DNA of 33,214 nucleotides from Acidimicrobiia bacterium (GTDB taxonomy: Bacteria; Actinomycetota; Acidimicrobiia; Acidimicrobiales; Acidimicrobilacustridaceae). A program made the position numbers and the translations under genes. This document shows, one piece after another, positions 8,002-17,646 of the stretch. How positions within the stretch are numbered: position 1 is the first letter of the stretch; each line of letters begins with the position of its first letter. A model generated the notes under the pieces. It ran no database searches and was not told the DNA's origin. It was given only the letters and a program-made list of their open reading frames with translations. The stretch is taken from contig JAFIEP010000091.1 of the NCBI GenBank assembly GCA_020832495.1, positions 1 through 33,214 on the forward strand. The letters run 5' to 3'.

Positions 8002-9258
8002 ATGGTCGACCCGCTGGTCGACGTCGAGGGGGTGTTCCGCGCCGAGTCAGGGCGGGCGCTGGCCACCATCGCCCGCCTGGTCGGCGACCTCGACCTGGCC
8101 GAGGATGCCGTGCAGGAGGCCTTCGCCACCGCATTATCGCACTGGCCGACCTCCGGCGTGCCCGACAACCCGGGAGCGTGGATCACTACCACGGCGCGCA
8201 ACAAAGCGCTCGACGTCATCCGCCGCGAGTCGACCCGCCCGAAGCGCGAGCTGCGGTCCGTGCGGGAGTCGCTCGACGACACGCCGCCGATCCTGCACCC
8301 GGTGGCCGACGACCAGCTCCGGGTCATGTTCACGTGCTGTCACCCGGCGCTGACCGAGGAGTCACGGGTGGCGCTCACCCTGCGGTTGGTGTGCGGGCTG
8401 CAGGTGCACGAGATCGCCCGGCTGCTGCTGCACGGCGAGGAGGCCGTGGCCAAGCGCATCGGCCGGGCCAAGGCCAAGATCCGCCAGGCACACATCCCGC
8501 TGCGCGTCCCCCCGCCGGAGCTGCTCGCCGAACGCACCCCTGGGGTACTCGAGTGCATCTACCTCACCTTCACCGAGGGGTACGCCGCTACCGCCGGCGA
8601 GCAGTTGATCCGCCACCAGTTGTGCGACGACGCCGTGCGTCTCGCCCGCCTGGTGGCGGCACTCGAGCCCGTCGATCCCGCAGCAGAGGCCCTACTGGCG
8701 CTGCTGCTGCTCCAGGACAGTCGGCGGGTCACCCGCCTCGACGACCACGGGGAGGTGGTGTTGCTCGCCGACCAGGACCGTTCCCGCTGGGACCACGACC
8801 TCATCGCCGAGGGCATGACCTGGCTGGATCGGGCCGGACGACACCCCACCATCAACGCCGGAGCGGCCGCCTACCTTCTGCAAGCGGCCATCGCCGCCGC
8901 ACATGCCCGGGCGGCGAGCTGGGAGGCCACCGACTGGCCGACGATCGTGGCGAACTACGACCAGTTGGCCGAGCTCACAGCGTCCCCGGTGGTGCAGGTC
9001 AACCGGGCCGTGGCCGTGTCGTTCGCCGACGGTCCGGGGGCCGCGCTGCCGCTGCTCGACGCGCTGGTAGCCGACGACCGTGTCGCCGATTCGCACACGC
9101 TCCACGCCGTGCGAGCCGACGTCCTGCACCGCCTGGGACGCATCGACGACGCCCGCCACGCCTACCTCGCCGCTCTGGCCACTGCCACGAACGAGCCGAC
9201 CCGCCAGGTGTTCCGCCGGAAACTGGCCCGCCTGGGTGGCACGGTCCGTCCGACGTGA
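8002..9258 (+). CDS. ECF42-type RNA polymerase sigma factor with C-terminal extension
   Basis: 418 residues, more than twice the length of a minimal ECF sigma factor. Region 2 is at about residues 9-75 (RLVGDLDLAEDAVQEAFATAL, then NPGAWITTTARNKALDVIRR), and region 4 at about 110-160 (LTLRLVCGLQVHEIARLLL...AVAKRIGRAK). The remainder is the DUF6596/TPR-like helical extension that defines the ECF42 group (LTFTEGYAAT near residue 190, later repeated helices). ECF42 factors are usually encoded beside DGPF proteins, as here, and no anti-sigma gene is present, which also fits: in this group the extension is thought to take over regulation. A convincing copy of the reported TGTCGA -35 element was not found upstream of the operon. 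Confidence 0.93.
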   Translation: MVDPLVDVEGVFRAESGRALATIARLVGDLDLAEDAVQEAFATALSHWPTSGVPDNPGAWITTTARNKALDVIRRESTRPKRELRSVRESLDDTPPILHPVADDQLRVMFTCCHPALTEESRVALTLRLVCGLQVHEIARLLLHGEEAVAKRIGRAKAKIRQAHIPLRVPPPELLAERTPGVLECIYLTFTEGYAATAGEQLIRHQLCDDAVRLARLVAALEPVDPAAEALLALLLLQDSRRVTRLDDHGEVVLLADQDRSRWDHDLIAEGMTWLDRAGRHPTINAGAAAYLLQAAIAAAHARAASWEATDWPTIVANYDQLAELTASPVVQVNRAVAVSFADGPGAALPLLDALVADDRVADSHTLHAVRADVLHRLGRIDDARHAYLAALATATNEPTRQVFRRKLARLGGTVRPT

Positions 9259-9961: not shown

Positions 9962-10549
9962 ATGAGCACCACGCCCGACACACCGGCGAGAACCCGCCGC
10001 CTCTCCGAGACCGAGTTCAGCTTCGCCCCGACCGGCGAACGGTTCGTCCTGCGGTCGGATCCGAGCGACACCTCGGTGCTGGCCTTCGACTTCTACGTCG
10101 AGCCCGGTGGCGGCGTGAAAGACAACCACCGTCACCGTTCACAGTCCGAGCACCTCCGGTGCATCAGCGGCACGCTCGACGTCACCGTCAACGGTGCGCC
10201 GGCTCAGCTCGGCCCGGGTGACGAGGTGGATCTACCGCCGGGGACCTTGCACACGCTCCAGAACCTCGGTGACACCGAGGTCCACTGCCACGTCGAGTAC
10301 CGCCCGGCGGGGCGCAATCGCGAGTGGTTCCAGATGATCGCCGCCTACATCGACCGGACGGGCAAGGAGCCCGGGCTCTTGGACCTCGCCCCGTTCCTCG
10401 TCGACGTCGACCTCTACCTCGGGATGCCCGTGTGGTTCCAACGCATCGTGCTCAAGGGCATCCTCGGACCCATCGGCACCCTGCTGGGACGACGTCGCCG
10501 CATGTTGGCCTGTGCAGCGGAGGCCTACGGCCGCCCCTTCACCTGGTAG
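9962..10549 (+). CDS. cupin-domain protein
   Basis: 195 residues. A cupin barrel occupies about residues 20-120: the first motif is in the stretch after DNHRHRSQSEH, with histidines and a glutamate placed as metal ligands, followed by GTLDVTVNG and PGDEVDLPPGTLHTLQN with the second-motif histidine. The C-terminal 75 residues form a basic, partly hydrophobic segment (PVWFQRIVLKGILGPIGTLLG) that might sit at a membrane. It is probably a metal-binding protein or small-molecule enzyme; its substrate is unknown. It is divergent from the TetR gene and likely regulated by it. Its last codons (GRPFTW and stop) form most of a 23-bp repeat that recurs 1027 bp downstream. Confidence 0.88.
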   Translation: MSTTPDTPARTRRLSETEFSFAPTGERFVLRSDPSDTSVLAFDFYVEPGGGVKDNHRHRSQSEHLRCISGTLDVTVNGAPAQLGPGDEVDLPPGTLHTLQNLGDTEVHCHVEYRPAGRNREWFQMIAAYIDRTGKEPGLLDLAPFLVDVDLYLGMPVWFQRIVLKGILGPIGTLLGRRRRMLACAAEAYGRPFTW

Positions 10550-10552
10550 CCC
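10530..10552 (+). repeat. left copy of a perfect 23-bp direct repeat
   Basis: Starts GCCGCCCCTTCACCTGGTAG and continues 3 nt. It covers the last codons and stop of the cupin gene. The same 23 bases occur at 11557-11579, while the sequence on either side of the two copies is unrelated. Confidence 0.9.
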
Positions 10553-10568
10553 TCGGTCCCGGCCGAGG
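10551..10568 (+). terminator. stem-loop after the cupin gene
   Basis: CCTCGG at 10551-10556 pairs with CCGAGG at 10563-10568 around a 6-nt loop, directly behind the cupin stop codon. There is no T-run, so it is only a weak candidate intrinsic terminator. It sits just inside the inserted unit. Confidence 0.3.
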
Positions 10569-10609
10569 CCAAGCCCGCTCAGCCGGACCCCGCCTCGGCG
10601 AATCGATGC

Positions 10610-11539
10610 TCAGGTGGCCGGACGGAGCCTGCTGCGCAAGTGGTTGGCGACAGCCTCGATCTCATCGTCGAGGTGTCCCGGCGCTGCGACATGGTCGGCA
10701 AGCGCCTTCGGCCACAGCGCGGTCACACCCTTGACGCGCTTCTTGCGCATGATCCAACCCCACTCACAGCCAATGAAGCAGAGCACGCCCTGGACCTCGA
10801 CGTGTGCGAACTCCTCACCCATCGCGCCACGTACCACCTCGATCTGTCCCAACACCCCGTCGACCAGCTTGGTTCGATCCCGCCTGTTGACGTAGAGACG
10901 CTCGTCGAGCCGAAACAGACCGCCGACGTCGCGAACCTCGATCTCACCGGTGTACTTCTTGGCATCAATCACAAAGACACCCTTCGGTCCCACCACCAGG
11001 TGATCGATGTTGGCCCGACTCCCCGGCACGCGTCGATCGTGCAGCACCTCGATGCCGGCAACCTGTGCGAGAACCTCGGCAACTCGCCGCTCGCCCTCGG
11101 CGCCGATCTTCCAAGCCGTGGTCGCCTGTGCTTCCGGACCGATCTGCGGCTTCGGGGTGAGTCCTGCGGCGATCCGACCCACTACCGGGCGTCGGTCCTT
11201 GATGGACCTGCGCCACTCGGTGTCCTCGGCCACGCGTGCTCGTTTGGCAGCGAGCTCTCGCGCGGCGCGCTTGTCGTACTCGACCTGCGCTGAACGGCCG
11301 GCCTGATCCTGCACCTCTTCGTCGGTGGGATCGACCGCAGGCGGCATGACCGCCGGGGTCGCGGCCGGGGCATCGCTCGAAGCGACGTCGAGCTGGTGCT
11401 CTGCGGCCTCGACGATGTCACCGGCTTCCTGACAGGTGACACACCGCACGATGCGTTCAGCCGCAATCCAGTATGCCGTCGTACCTGCCGGGAGATCGAC
11501 CCCGCACCCTGCGCAGGTGTCGTTCCGGCGGATCGCCAT
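10610..11539 (-). CDS. zinc-ribbon NERD-domain (nuclease-related) protein
   Basis: 309 residues from the ATG at 11539. The N-terminus is a four-cysteine zinc ribbon (C9, C12, C33, C36). A charged, proline-containing linker covers about 40-140. The NERD domain begins near residue 143 (WKIGAEGERRVAE) and shows the expected nuclease residues: E150, D179 in NIDHLVVGPKGVF, then D192-A-K194 in VIDAKKY. NERD is a restriction-endonuclease-like fold whose substrate is generally unknown. In-frame GTG codons at 11551 and 11569 could extend it by 4 or 10 residues, and the outer one lies inside the 23-bp repeat; ATG is preferred because the zinc ribbon follows at once. The gene is flanked by direct repeats and opposes the cupin gene. 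Confidence 0.85.
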   Translation of the reverse strand: MAIRRNDTCAGCGVDLPAGTTAYWIAAERIVRCVTCQEAGDIVEAAEHQLDVASSDAPAATPAVMPPAVDPTDEEVQDQAGRSAQVEYDKRAARELAAKRARVAEDTEWRRSIKDRRPVVGRIAAGLTPKPQIGPEAQATTAWKIGAEGERRVAEVLAQVAGIEVLHDRRVPGSRANIDHLVVGPKGVFVIDAKKYTGEIEVRDVGGLFRLDERLYVNRRDRTKLVDGVLGQIEVVRGAMGEEFAHVEVQGVLCFIGCEWGWIMRKKRVKGVTALWPKALADHVAAPGHLDDEIEAVANHLRSRLRPAT

Positions 11540-11556
11540 CTTCTTGGTCACAGGAC

Positions 11557-11579
11557 GCCGCCCCTTCACCTGGTAGCCC
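11557..11579 (+). repeat. right copy of the 23-bp direct repeat
   Basis: Identical to 10530-10552 over 23 bases. It lies upstream of the NERD gene and 7 nt beyond the SDR stop codon, so it is non-coding for both unless the NERD gene starts at the GTG at 11569. Confidence 0.9.
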
Positions 11580-11586
11580 GACGCTG

Positions 11587-12345
11587 TCAGTCACCAGGCG
11601 GCGCCATCAGGTCAGCAAAGGTGGGCAACTCCCACGGGTGAGGTGGTTGCCCTGCTCGCACCACCACACAGCGGCCCGTGCCCTCGCTGGTCGCCAGGTC
11701 GAGCGCGGCGGTCACCACCTCGGCGGGTTCGATGAGGTCGATGCCCAGCGCGGCGAGGTCCAGGCCACCGGCCGCGCCCTCGGTCATGGGGGTGTCCACG
11801 ATGCCGGGGCAGACGGCGTCGATGGTGATGCCGTCGCCGGCCAGGCTGGGCGCCGATGCCGCCACGAACGCAGCCACGGCGTGCTTGGTGGCCGAGTAGA
11901 TCGGGTTGCCGGCAAAGGGAACCAGCCCGGCTACCGACGCCGTGGCCACGATCGCTCCTCCGCCTGCGGCACGCATGACCGGCACCACGGCCCGCACCCC
12001 CAGCACCACTCCCCCGACGTTCGCCCCCACCGTGCGCGAGTAGACGCCGTCGGACAGCTCGTCGATCGGCCCGCTGTGGCCGTAGACCCCGGCGTTCAGA
12101 TAGGCGAGGTCGATGCCACCCAGCTCGTCGGTGGTCGCCACCACGCGCGCCCACAGTTCGGGGTCGGCCACGTCACCGACCACGGCGACACCCCCCACTG
12201 CCTCTGCGGTGTGGGCGGCTGTGTCCGCGTCGAGGTCGACCGCCACCACACGGGCCCCCTCGGCGGCGAACCGCTCGCACGCCACCCGGCCGATGCCCGA
12301 CCCGGCCCCGGTCACGATGGCGATCTGGTCCTCGAGTCGTCCCAT
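11587..12345 (-). CDS. short-chain dehydrogenase/reductase (SDR)
   Basis: 252 residues, the classical SDR length. The cofactor loop is TGAGSGIG (12-19), an aspartate after the second strand (AVDLD, near residue 37) favours NAD over NADP, NAG starts at N84, and the catalytic residues are S137, Y150 and K154 in Y-S-A-T-K. A PGIVDTPM segment follows as usual. The substrate cannot be predicted. The ATG at 12345 is preceded by a TAGGGT box 8 nt upstream, suggesting a near-leaderless transcript; the frame continues upstream but does not look coding. Confidence 0.93.
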   Translation of the reverse strand: MGRLEDQIAIVTGAGSGIGRVACERFAAEGARVVAVDLDADTAAHTAEAVGGVAVVGDVADPELWARVVATTDELGGIDLAYLNAGVYGHSGPIDELSDGVYSRTVGANVGGVVLGVRAVVPVMRAAGGGAIVATASVAGLVPFAGNPIYSATKHAVAAFVAASAPSLAGDGITIDAVCPGIVDTPMTEGAAGGLDLAALGIDLIEPAEVVTAALDLATSEGTGRCVVVRAGQPPHPWELPTFADLMAPPGD

Positions 12346-12451: not shown

Positions 12452-12703
12452 ATGCGCACCACCGTCGCCATCGACGACCATCTTCTCGAGCGAGCCAAGG
12501 AGCGCGCCCGGGAGCGGAACCTCACCCTCGGCAGACTCATCGAGGACGCGTTGCGACGAGAACTCGCCAGCGGCGAGTCGCGCCCGACCGGGCCAACTGT
12601 GCCGGTGTTCAAAGGAACCGGCGCACGACCCGGCGTCGACCTCAGCTCCTACCGCTCGATCGCCGAGGCGCTCGACGACGACGCCTTGGATCGCATCCCG
12701 TGA
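12452..12703 (+). CDS. ribbon-helix-helix antitoxin (VapB-like)
   Basis: 83 residues. The N-terminal ribbon and two helices ([20 protein letters not shown], then [15 protein letters not shown]) are a standard RHH DNA-binding fold. The C-terminal tail, from about residue 45, is the part that would wrap the toxin. The stop overlaps the GTG start of the PIN-domain gene by 4 nt, so the two are translationally coupled as in VapBC modules. It is probably autoregulatory. Confidence 0.87.
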
Positions 12704-13137
12704 TCGTCCTCGACGTGAACGTGGTGCTGGCCGCCCACCGCGACGACCACCCGCACCACCAGCTCGTCCGTCCCTGGTTCGACGAGCTGCTCGCCGGCAC
12801 GGACCGGTTCTCGGTGCCTGACGCGGTGTGGGCGTCGTTCATCCGGATCACCACGAACCGGCGGATCTTCGAGCTCCCCACACCCATGGCCGACGCCTTC
12901 GAGTTCATTCGGGCCGTTCGCGCCCAACCGAACCACGAGTCGTCGACCCCGAGCAGACGCCACCTCGAGCTGTTCGAGCAGCTCTGCGTGGAGTACAGCG
13001 CCAACGGTGATCTGGCCATGGACGCCTACCTCGCTGCGATCACCCTGGACCACGGTGCGCGCCTGGCAACCCTCGACGGCGACTTCGCAAGGTTCACCCC
13101 GCTCGAGACCGTCCGACCGGCCACCGACGTTCGCTGA
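12700..13137 (+). CDS. PIN-domain ribonuclease toxin (VapC-like)
   Basis: 145 residues, a PIN domain of the longer VapC type. Acidic residues for metal binding are D5 (LDVNVVLA), D108 (MDAYLAAI) and D126/D128 (LDGDF). The [11 protein letters not shown] stretch at 47-57 is typical of this subgroup. VapC proteins cut tRNA or rRNA; the target is unknown. The start is GTG, overlapping the antitoxin stop. The gene converges with rtcB with only 7 nt between the stops. Confidence 0.88.
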
Positions 13138-13144
13138 CCAGCGA

Positions 13145-14305
13145 CTACGTGCCCTTGTAGTTGAGGACCTGGCGCAGTTCGTGCAGCACGTCGACCAGGT
13201 CGGTCTGGTCGCCCATGACCTGGTCGATGTCCTTGTAGGCCGACGGGATCTCGTCGACCAGCGCATCGGCTCGGTGCGCCAACCAGACCTTGCCGGCCAT
13301 CTGGCGGGCAAGGTCGTCGGTGGTGAACAGCTTCTTGGCGCGGCTGCGGGAGTGCCGGCGGCCGGCGCCGTGGCTGCACGACGTCCAACTCGCCGAACTT
13401 CCCTTGCCGGCCACGATGTAGCTGCGGGTACCCATCGAGCCGGGGATCACGCCCAGGTCGCCGGTGTCGGCCTTGATGGCGCCCTTGCGGGTGATCCACA
13501 GCGACCGATCGCCGTGGGTCTCGCGCTGGGTGAAGTTGTGATGGCAGTTGATGCGCCGCGTCTCTCGGCCGAAGCCGAGGAAGCCGAACACCTCACCCAT
13601 GGCGTTGTCCATCATCTGGTCGCGGTTGGCGCGGGCGTACTCCTGTGCCCACAACATGTCGCCGATGTACGCCTCGAACTCAGGGGTGTCCTCCACGAAG
13701 TAGGCCAGGTCCGGGTCCTCGAGGCGCAGCTCGAGATCCTTGGCCAGACGCTTCGCGGCGGCGATGTGCATCTGGGCGAGCTGGTTGCCGATGCCGCGGC
13801 TGCCCGAGTGCAACACCACCCACACCCGGGCGCGCTCGTCGATGCACAACTCGAAGAAGTGGTTGCCCGAACCGAGCGTGCCGAACTGCTTGGCGGCCTT
13901 GGCCGACTGCTTGTTGGCCAGGGTCGTGGCCGGCCGATGCGCGGCCAGCCACCGGTCGGCGGCGCGGCCCACCTCGTCGTGGCCGCGACCGACGCCGGCG
14001 GGAATCGCCTTCTCGATGCGCCCGAGCAGCGGCTCGAGCGAGTCGGGCAACTGGTCCTCGGACACGTCGAGCTCGGCAGCCACCATCCCGCACCCGATGT
14101 CGACACCGACGGCGGCGGGGATGACCGCGCCGCTGGTGGGGATCACCGACCCCACCGTTGCACCAAGGCCGACATGCGCGTCGGGCATCAGGGCCACGTG
14201 GCCGGCAACGATGGGCAGACGAGCGGTCGTCTCGGCCTGGCGGATGGCGCCGGGGTCGATGTCAGTCGCCCACGAGATGAGCTTGTCGTTGATGGTGGTG
14301 GGCAT
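13145..14305 (-). CDS. rtcB: RNA-splicing ligase RtcB
   Basis: 386 residues. RtcB joins RNA ends carrying 2',3'-cyclic phosphate or 3'-phosphate to 5'-OH ends, using Mn2+ and GTP. All expected ligands are visible: D69 and C72 in GVDIGCGM, H149 in GSGNHFFEL, H166 in LHSGSRG, H255/H256 in CHHNF, and the guanylated histidine H312 in SHGAGR. The ATG has a strong AAGGAGG 8-9 nt upstream, which rules out the longer in-frame reading to 14716. No archease or RtcA gene is adjacent. It is divergent from a RHH-MazF pair (159 nt between starts) and convergent with a VapC gene, so the repair ligase is enclosed by RNA-cutting toxins. Promoter elements were not identified. Confidence 0.95.
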   Translation of the reverse strand: MPTTINDKLISWATDIDPGAIRQAETTARLPIVAGHVALMPDAHVGLGATVGSVIPTSGAVIPAAVGVDIGCGMVAAELDVSEDQLPDSLEPLLGRIEKAIPAGVGRGHDEVGRAADRWLAAHRPATTLANKQSAKAAKQFGTLGSGNHFFELCIDERARVWVVLHSGSRGIGNQLAQMHIAAAKRLAKDLELRLEDPDLAYFVEDTPEFEAYIGDMLWAQEYARANRDQMMDNAMGEVFGFLGFGRETRRINCHHNFTQRETHGDRSLWITRKGAIKADTGDLGVIPGSMGTRSYIVAGKGSSASWTSCSHGAGRRHSRSRAKKLFTTDDLARQMAGKVWLAHRADALVDEIPSAYKDIDQVMGDQTDLVDVLHELRQVLNYKGT

Positions 14306-16486: not shown

Positions 16487-17646
16487 GCATCGACGACGCC
16501 CCGCTGGCGGTGACGTTGGGCTTCGTGCCCAGCGAGGTGACTGTTCCCGACCTCGAACGTCCCGGGCTCCTCCGAGCCGGGCCACGCGCTGCAGCGCCCT
16601 ACGCCCGGGACAACGTCGAGCGGCACGTCTGCCGGGCCACCGACCTGTGCGCCGACGACGCCGTACAGCCCGACCTGTTCGAGTTCGGTTTCGACACGGT
16701 CGACCTCTCGCCCCTCGACGACCTCCAGCGGGCCTGCGCTCGCGTCCGCCAGGCGGGCATCGTCACCGACGCCGAGGCGACCACGATCCGTTCGTCGCTG
16801 CAGGGCACCCGACTGCGGTCCGCCGGCGGCCGAACCCTCACGGTGCAGTTCATCGCCGAGGAGGGCTTCATCATGCGCATCGCCGGCCCCAACGGCATGC
16901 CGGTCGGCGGGACGGGGTCGAAGGGCATGAACGGCCACGGTGGGGCCACCTCCGTCCATGCCGACCAGGACGTGTTCGGCACACCGCTCACCCAACTGAT
17001 GGACGGTCGGGCACCGTCGCTGTTCCGCCACGACTCACCCGACGGGCACAACCACGACGCCACGCTCATGCTCGTCAACCTGTGGATCCCGCTGCAGCAG
17101 ATCACCCAACCGTTGGCCCTGGCCGACGGACGGAGCATCGACCGCCGTCGCCACCAACTCCGCTACGGGCTGGCCACCGAGTCGTTCCTCGACCGCAACG
17201 ATGACATGACGGTCAACGACATCTGGACGTTCCTGCACCACCCCGACCAGCGTTGGTACCTGCGCTCGGACATGGACCACGACCGCGCCTATGTGTTCAA
17301 CACGTTGAGTACACCGCACGGCGCCTGCACCCTGGCCGGCGAGGACGTCGCCGAACACTTCTACCGCGCTTTGGAGGCCGCCGAGGCTGCCGTTGCTGCC
17401 GGCGACGTCGACGCCCTCCTCGCCGCGGTCACACCGCTCGGCGAACTGGCGATCCCGGGCGACACCCCGTTGGCGTTGCGCGCCGCCGTCGATGCGATGG
17501 CTGCCGTGGCGGCCGAGGCCGGCAGCGCGCCAGGCGAGATCTGCCAGGACCGAGCAGACGGCTGGCTCGCCCGATCGGGCCAGGCTCGGCGCCGGGTGGT
17601 GCGCATGTCGCTGGAGATGCGCCTGGTGGTGGCGGTCGGCCGGTAG
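16483..17646 (+). CDS. putative CmcJ/AsaB/NvfI-like Fe(II) oxygenase
   Basis: 387 residues. The pattern resembles the CmcJ/AsaB/NvfI family of non-haem iron enzymes: H159-A-D161 as the HxD pair, VNLWIPLQQITQPLALADGR (199-218) matching the family N-x-W-x-P-L...P-L-A-x-x-D block, WYLRSDM near 258-264, and a distal histidine H279 in NTLSTPHGA. Known relatives use iron and 2-oxoglutarate or oxygen on small secondary metabolites. The match is by pattern only, so the fold is likely but the reaction is open. A helical, alanine-rich C-terminal region (about 290-380) is extra to the core. It is coupled to the Gfo/Idh gene by a 4-nt overlap. Confidence 0.6.
   Translation: MSIDDAPLAVTLGFVPSEVTVPDLERPGLLRAGPRAAAPYARDNVERHVCRATDLCADDAVQPDLFEFGFDTVDLSPLDDLQRACARVRQAGIVTDAEATTIRSSLQGTRLRSAGGRTLTVQFIAEEGFIMRIAGPNGMPVGGTGSKGMNGHGGATSVHADQDVFGTPLTQLMDGRAPSLFRHDSPDGHNHDATLMLVNLWIPLQQITQPLALADGRSIDRRRHQLRYGLATESFLDRNDDMTVNDIWTFLHHPDQRWYLRSDMDHDRAYVFNTLSTPHGACTLAGEDVAEHFYRALEAAEAAVAAGDVDALLAAVTPLGELAIPGDTPLALRAAVDAMAAVAAEAGSAPGEICQDRADGWLARSGQARRRVVRMSLEMRLVVAVGR

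Follow-up and report, generated by a model that had tools for sequence, protein, structure and literature searches.

Integrative elements are described in one review as being bounded by direct repeats of 8–60 bp; they integrate at the 3′ ends of genes without disrupting them, and include cis-mobilizable elements (CIMEs), in which the recombinase has been lost (PMC5704250). The NERD nuclease domain appears in listings of the Mokosh type I and Nhi-like defence systems (PMC10952713) and is named in TALON systems (PMC12458937) and in PglW (PMC4365076). The NERD gene described here lies on contig JAFIEP010000091.1 of a metagenome-assembled genome (MAG) of an Acidimicrobiia bacterium (order Acidimicrobiales, phylum Actinomycetota; assembly GCA_020832495.1), within a 33,214-nucleotide stretch that is referred to below as the window. 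It is a stand-alone gene, and it is flanked by an exact 23-bp direct repeat, GCCGCCCCTTCACCTGGTAGCCC, with copies at positions 10530–10552 and 11557–11579 whose starts are 1027 bp apart. The unit is similar to CIMEs and other tyrosine-recombinase elements (PMC5704250) in that its direct repeats fall within the range of 8–60 bp, one of them supplies the 3′ terminus of a gene, and no recombinase is found inside. It differs from a CIME in its length of 1 kb, its content of one gene without a trace of integration or transfer genes, and its use of a rare protein gene as the target. The explanation that we prefer, with a probability of roughly 60%, is that the NERD unit was acquired as an insert of one gene with a 23-bp duplication at its borders, through end joining or a CIME-like insertion. 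The locus is a clear-cut case of a single nuclease gene enclosed by a short, perfect duplication, and it consists of the following parts.

9962–10549, plus strand: cupin_2 gene, 195 amino acids, with the final six codons and the stop codon inside the left repeat copy (open reading frame; Pfam PF07883, 1.4e-12).
10530–10552, plus strand: left repeat copy (exact sequence match).
10553–11556, no strand assigned: segment between the repeat copies, 1004 bp (G+C content 66.2%, versus 69.2% for the window).
10562–10599, minus strand, boundaries approximate: hairpin 3′ of the NERD gene (GCCGAGGC...GCCTCGGC), a possible terminator without a U run (RNA fold).
10610–11551, minus strand: NERD nuclease gene, 313 amino acids, GTG start, protein beginning MTKKMAIRR (Pfam PF08378, 9.2e-16 on a 309-residue form).
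11557–11579, plus strand: right repeat copy (exact sequence match).
11587–12345, minus strand: short-chain dehydrogenase/reductase (SDR) oxidoreductase gene, with its stop 7 bp from the right copy (Pfam PF00106, 1.3e-44).

A first-pass annotation, made from the letters of the window, had described a perfect repeat around the NERD gene with unrelated flanks, an intact cupin frame and no recombinase inside, and all of these points are borne out. In the cupin frame, the left copy reads GGC CGC CCC TTC ACC TGG TAG, which is the end of the gene including its stop codon. The right copy forms the short leader between the stop of the SDR gene and the likely start of the NERD gene, which is 5 bp away; on the minus strand it contains AGGTGAAGGGG, a possible ribosome-binding region of the NERD gene. 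The 1004-bp segment consists of 57 bp that contain the hairpin on the NERD strand, the NERD gene, and the remaining 5 bp. The fold of positions 10550–10612 on the minus strand has an energy of −34.7 kcal/mol with a z-score of −2.15, and 8 of 200 shuffled sequences fold equally well. The NERD gene is the sole open reading frame between the copies that matches a recognised family among those searched, and no recombinase was seen among the frames there. The cupin, NERD and SDR genes are all intact and ordinarily spaced. The NERD gene is probably transcribed from the side of the SDR gene with the right copy as its leader, and because the two genes lie on the same strand, the NERD gene may depend on SDR transcription.

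The repeat is too long to be explained by chance. The longest direct repeat with a spacing of 300–5000 bp in 150 simulated windows (order-4 Markov, 33,214 bp each) was 20 bp, and none reached 23 bp, which rules out a chance origin. The 40-nt sequences next to the two copies are identical at 11 of 40 positions on the left and 7 of 40 on the right; therefore, the repeat does not extend into a longer duplicated region, and gene duplication is ruled out as the source of the repeat. A scan of the whole MAG (4,461,226 bases in 147 contigs, at most three mismatches) found the 23-mer at two sites, both at the NERD locus, and the exact 23-mer was not found in the viral contigs. With the unit removed, the convergent stops of the cupin and SDR genes would be 10 bp apart, and 8 of 100 convergent gene pairs are separated by 0–20 bp, which speaks in favour of an insertion.

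Exact repeats of at least 20 bp with a spacing of 300–6000 bp were sought in 70 stretches of the genome, which comprise 1,063,309 bases (2,000 of them counted twice), or about a quarter of the genome. Repeat pairs occur in 11 of the 70 stretches, and most of the non-tandem ones have an ordinary source: transfer RNA (tRNA) ends and related cassette DNA in stretch L120, a tRNA-type end in L211, a hairpin in L140, and a CRISPR-like array in L114. Repeats with related flanks in L119, L195, L200 and L212 are coding repeats or gene fragments, and L208 is a repetitive coding stretch with 19 repeat pairs within 1.2 kb. Two pairs are isolated in the same manner as that of the window. In L215 (contig C120, which carries a recombinase gene), a 20-bp pair at positions 163 and 2505 has no clear source and weakly similar flanks (15/40 and 18/40). 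In L214 (recombinase contig C97), a 25-bp pair at positions 9122 and 17488, more widely spaced at 8.4 kb, likewise has no clear source; its flanks are identical at 10/40 and 14/40, and it lies immediately within the boundaries of a tRNA-Asn element. The idea that the window repeat is the sole isolated one in the stretches read was dropped on account of these two pairs. The feature is real and is uncommon in the quarter of the genome that was read, but it seems to be a single scar.

The NERD protein looks like an intact predicted nuclease of the PD-(D/E)xK type. Its PF08378 score is 58.8 bits, against a cut-off of 22.1, and like other proteins of this family it has a single NERD domain, conserved E, D and DxK positions, and an N-terminal CxxC...CxxC segment. 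Residues E154, D183, D196 and K198, which we take to be the catalytic residues of NERD, are invariant across eight aligned sequences (the window protein and seven homologues). The GTG at position 11551 is the likely start because one homologue, L074, has ATGACCAAGCTGATG at the corresponding place. PADLOC at a threshold of 0.1 assigned no family to the protein, and NCBIfam gave only a weak hit to the N-terminal region of MAD6, at 24.6 bits where the cut-off is 460. Solved structures offered nothing useful, and the literature listings searched contained nothing on the locus. The third-position GC content of the NERD gene is 0.769, the 10.8th percentile of 498 called genes, whereas the cupin, SDR and TetR genes have values of 0.856–0.881, which are typical for the genome.

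Relatives of the NERD gene are distributed patchily: of the 298 genomes sampled from the order, 48 carry one, with its own genome counted, and the genome_contigs search yielded 29 NERD loci. When an empty site was sought through congeners of other NERD carriers, one carrier, G223, proved to be the sole member of its genus among the genomes examined. Of 59 NERD loci, the 50 with 200 nt or more on each side were used in a test of flank-to-flank matches; the other nine, with flanks shorter than 200 nt, were excluded. The highest score among 2000 control cross pairs was 19, and it was exceeded at two of the 50 loci, the window (23) and L097 (328), with the next best value being 14. The other 48 loci show no such flanking repeats, and thus serve as a negative control for the travel of NERD genes as cassettes. 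In L097, part of a flavoprotein gene (Pfam Pyr_redox_3 and FMO-like) recurs upstream of the NERD gene as a 442-bp copy of 91% identity, and the full gene lies downstream. This repeat is best read as a gene pair, one truncated and one full, with the NERD gene between them; the layout is like that of the window, whereas the size and divergence of the repeat differ. The NERD region of L097 (1917–7003) also has in its vicinity a DEAD/ResIII helicase gene, which has a PLD match below the cut-off and may belong to a defence system.

The first-pass annotation had raised the possibility of a single-gene nuclease cassette, which it called unusual, and had suggested looking for the same repeat beside other NERD genes. 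This interpretation is supported as far as a one-time scar of insertion or rearrangement is concerned, given a repeat beyond chance, unrelated flanks, the low third-position GC content and the patchy occurrence of NERD. With one of 49 other loci flanked by repeats, and that one, L097, dissimilar, the flank test does not support a recurring single-gene NERD cassette, and the absence of the 23-mer from viral contigs also speaks against it. A mobile nuclease cassette beyond the window locus is not supported. No near DNA match pointed to a phage or plasmid origin. The relatives of the protein on plasmids are all less than 60% identical (at most 44% among the 20 listed of 34), those in phages amount to one weak match, and no NERD relative was found in the viral contigs searched. 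In another NERD carrier, G200, the gene (L027, 672–2073) lies within DNA that is repeated in many congeners, part of which may, as judged by eye, be the start of an IS481-like transposase.

In the insertion that we envisage, an intact NERD gene with its own 3′ hairpin, probably acquired horizontally, would have been placed between the cupin and SDR genes, and a single recombination event would have duplicated 23 bp of the cupin end on both sides. The two copies would then be the scar of that event and not a motif carried by NERD genes. We infer both that the NERD gene is the inserted part and that the order before the insertion was cupin, 23 bp, 7 bp, SDR. As to the mechanism, end joining without site specificity and with duplication of the target, for which the genome encodes Ku, is placed first, although only tentatively. 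The alternative route to the same insert, a minimal CIME-like unit inserted at the cupin 3′ end, with the copies as attL and attR and a tyrosine recombinase encoded elsewhere or lost, is placed second and is somewhat doubtful. The genome has 14 matches to tyrosine recombinases and contains an array of cassettes that lack a recombinase and are delimited by tRNA-Gly ends, and in a relative, G004, the end of one of these cassettes is next to an integrase-like gene (PF14659, 1.1e-12). However, the two recombinase-bearing elements with visible ends, in L211 and L214, are bounded by repeats of tRNA-type ends of 51 and 48 bp, respectively (ARAGORN called a tRNA at the element repeat in L214 and not in L211), and not by a 23-bp end of a protein gene. 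Non-specific insertion is ranked above the CIME-like one because the cupin gene is rare and poorly conserved, and thus a poor integration target, the 1004-bp segment shows no remnant of a recombination module, and the genome offers no further site for the 23-mer. It is very improbable that the NERD gene is itself a minimal mobile unit, whose nuclease would make a staggered cut in the chromosome and whose capture by Ku-dependent host end joining would leave the target duplication; if true, this would be a one-gene nuclease spreading without any recombinase.

Several observations weigh against an insertion, and some of them suit a different history, in which the NERD gene is an old neighbour of the SDR gene and a 23-bp part of its leader was copied to the cupin end, or to a new cupin–NERD junction, during break repair or template switching. 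The right copy is where a leader is expected and contains AAGGGG and AGGTGA, and the leader upstream of homologue L074 also holds AGGTGAGGGAGG, so that the right copy could be native to the NERD gene. The insert would comprise almost exactly one gene, whose start codon lies 5 bp in from the boundary; this arrangement fits a copied native leader equally well and, under copying, requires no coincidence. The C-terminal tail of the cupin, which is variable across 19 distant homologues, may tolerate such a change. The codon likeness of the 23-mer leans towards a cupin origin, but only slightly (log10 likelihood ratio 0.36–0.52). The closest SDR relatives, L004–L007, have no NERD match in the 1.3–1.4 kb downstream, and only two other short isolated copies turned up in 1.06 Mb, both in recombinase contigs. 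Templated copying is ranked third, not far behind the CIME-like insertion, and is considered unlikely. The low composition of the NERD gene is not extreme, and isolated repeats of at least 20 bp, though rare, also occur elsewhere in this genome, which further weakens the case for an insertion. So does the lack of a cupin relative close enough to display an empty site. At 1e-15, the 298 genomes of the order gave a cupin match in its own genome only; in the phylum, 97 of 396 sampled genomes matched, with at most 41% identity outside its own genome; no relative was confirmed in genome_contigs; and four plasmid records are at most 34% identical. In favour of an insertion, none of 77 loci searched with eight proteins of the window has a cupin match, and three have NERD together with a distant SDR (30–33%).

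That the sequence comes from a MAG counts against any insertion. Contigs could have been merged at a common 23-mer in the assembly, which comprises 147 contigs and is 96.9% complete. The k-mers with which assemblers finish are usually much longer than 23, the three genes are undamaged, and the 23-mer would still need to occur twice in the genome; an artefact is thus improbable. An integron gene cassette, a promoterless gene with a 3′ hairpin, would account for a unit occupied by a single gene that starts near one boundary and is followed by a hairpin. The core site motif of attC is GTT, and neither GTT nor AAC occurs in 10530–10612 or 11540–11579; hence, the junctions have no attC core site and an integron cassette, whose probability we regard as negligible, is rejected. 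To our knowledge, integron insertion does not duplicate 23 bp. The ends of a DDE transposon are also rejected: the 40-nt inner ends of the unit, one of them reversed, reach an alignment score of 6, which is equalled by 49% of 2000 random pairs.

A more useful lead than the NERD unit is the recombinase-less cargo stacked on a tRNA-Gly gene in L120 (contig C19, 11693–17530). After the tRNA-Gly(CCC) gene come three small units that lack a recombinase, and each of them ends in a copy of the tRNA terminus (46 nt at 13867, a degenerate copy at about 15427, and 40 nt at 17488). The cargo includes an AlbA_2/HATPase_c_4 gene, a MerR-DUF433 and PIN-like/DUF5615 pair, and two genes without a Pfam match. 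The NERD unit is similar to this array in being small cargo without a recombinase that is bounded by copies of the 3′ end of a gene; however, the array has tRNA ends of 46 and 40 nt and shared cassette ends, neither of which was seen by eye in the NERD unit. The L120 cassette end recurs, 87% identical over 218 nt, at 1530–1746 of L165 from G004, which is of the same family, and there it sits between the integrase-like gene (595–1476) and an AbiEii-like gene (PF08843, 1e-6; 1756–2625).

Other parts of the genome have features of their own. Next to the SDR gene, at 12452–13137 of the window, is a possible toxin–antitoxin pair composed of a DUF6364-like antitoxin, below the cut-off, and a PIN toxin. 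A CRISPR-like array with the 36-nt repeat GCCGCAATGGAGGCGCCGCCCGGAGGCGACGCTGAC is located at the start of contig C13 (L114, 1–1500). In L140 (contig C29, 17381–18030), two hairpins of nearly the same sequence, GGTTGGGTGGTGGCGG...CCACCACCCAACC, enclose an open reading frame of 152 amino acids, and a tyrosine recombinase gene lies about 3.6 kb away.
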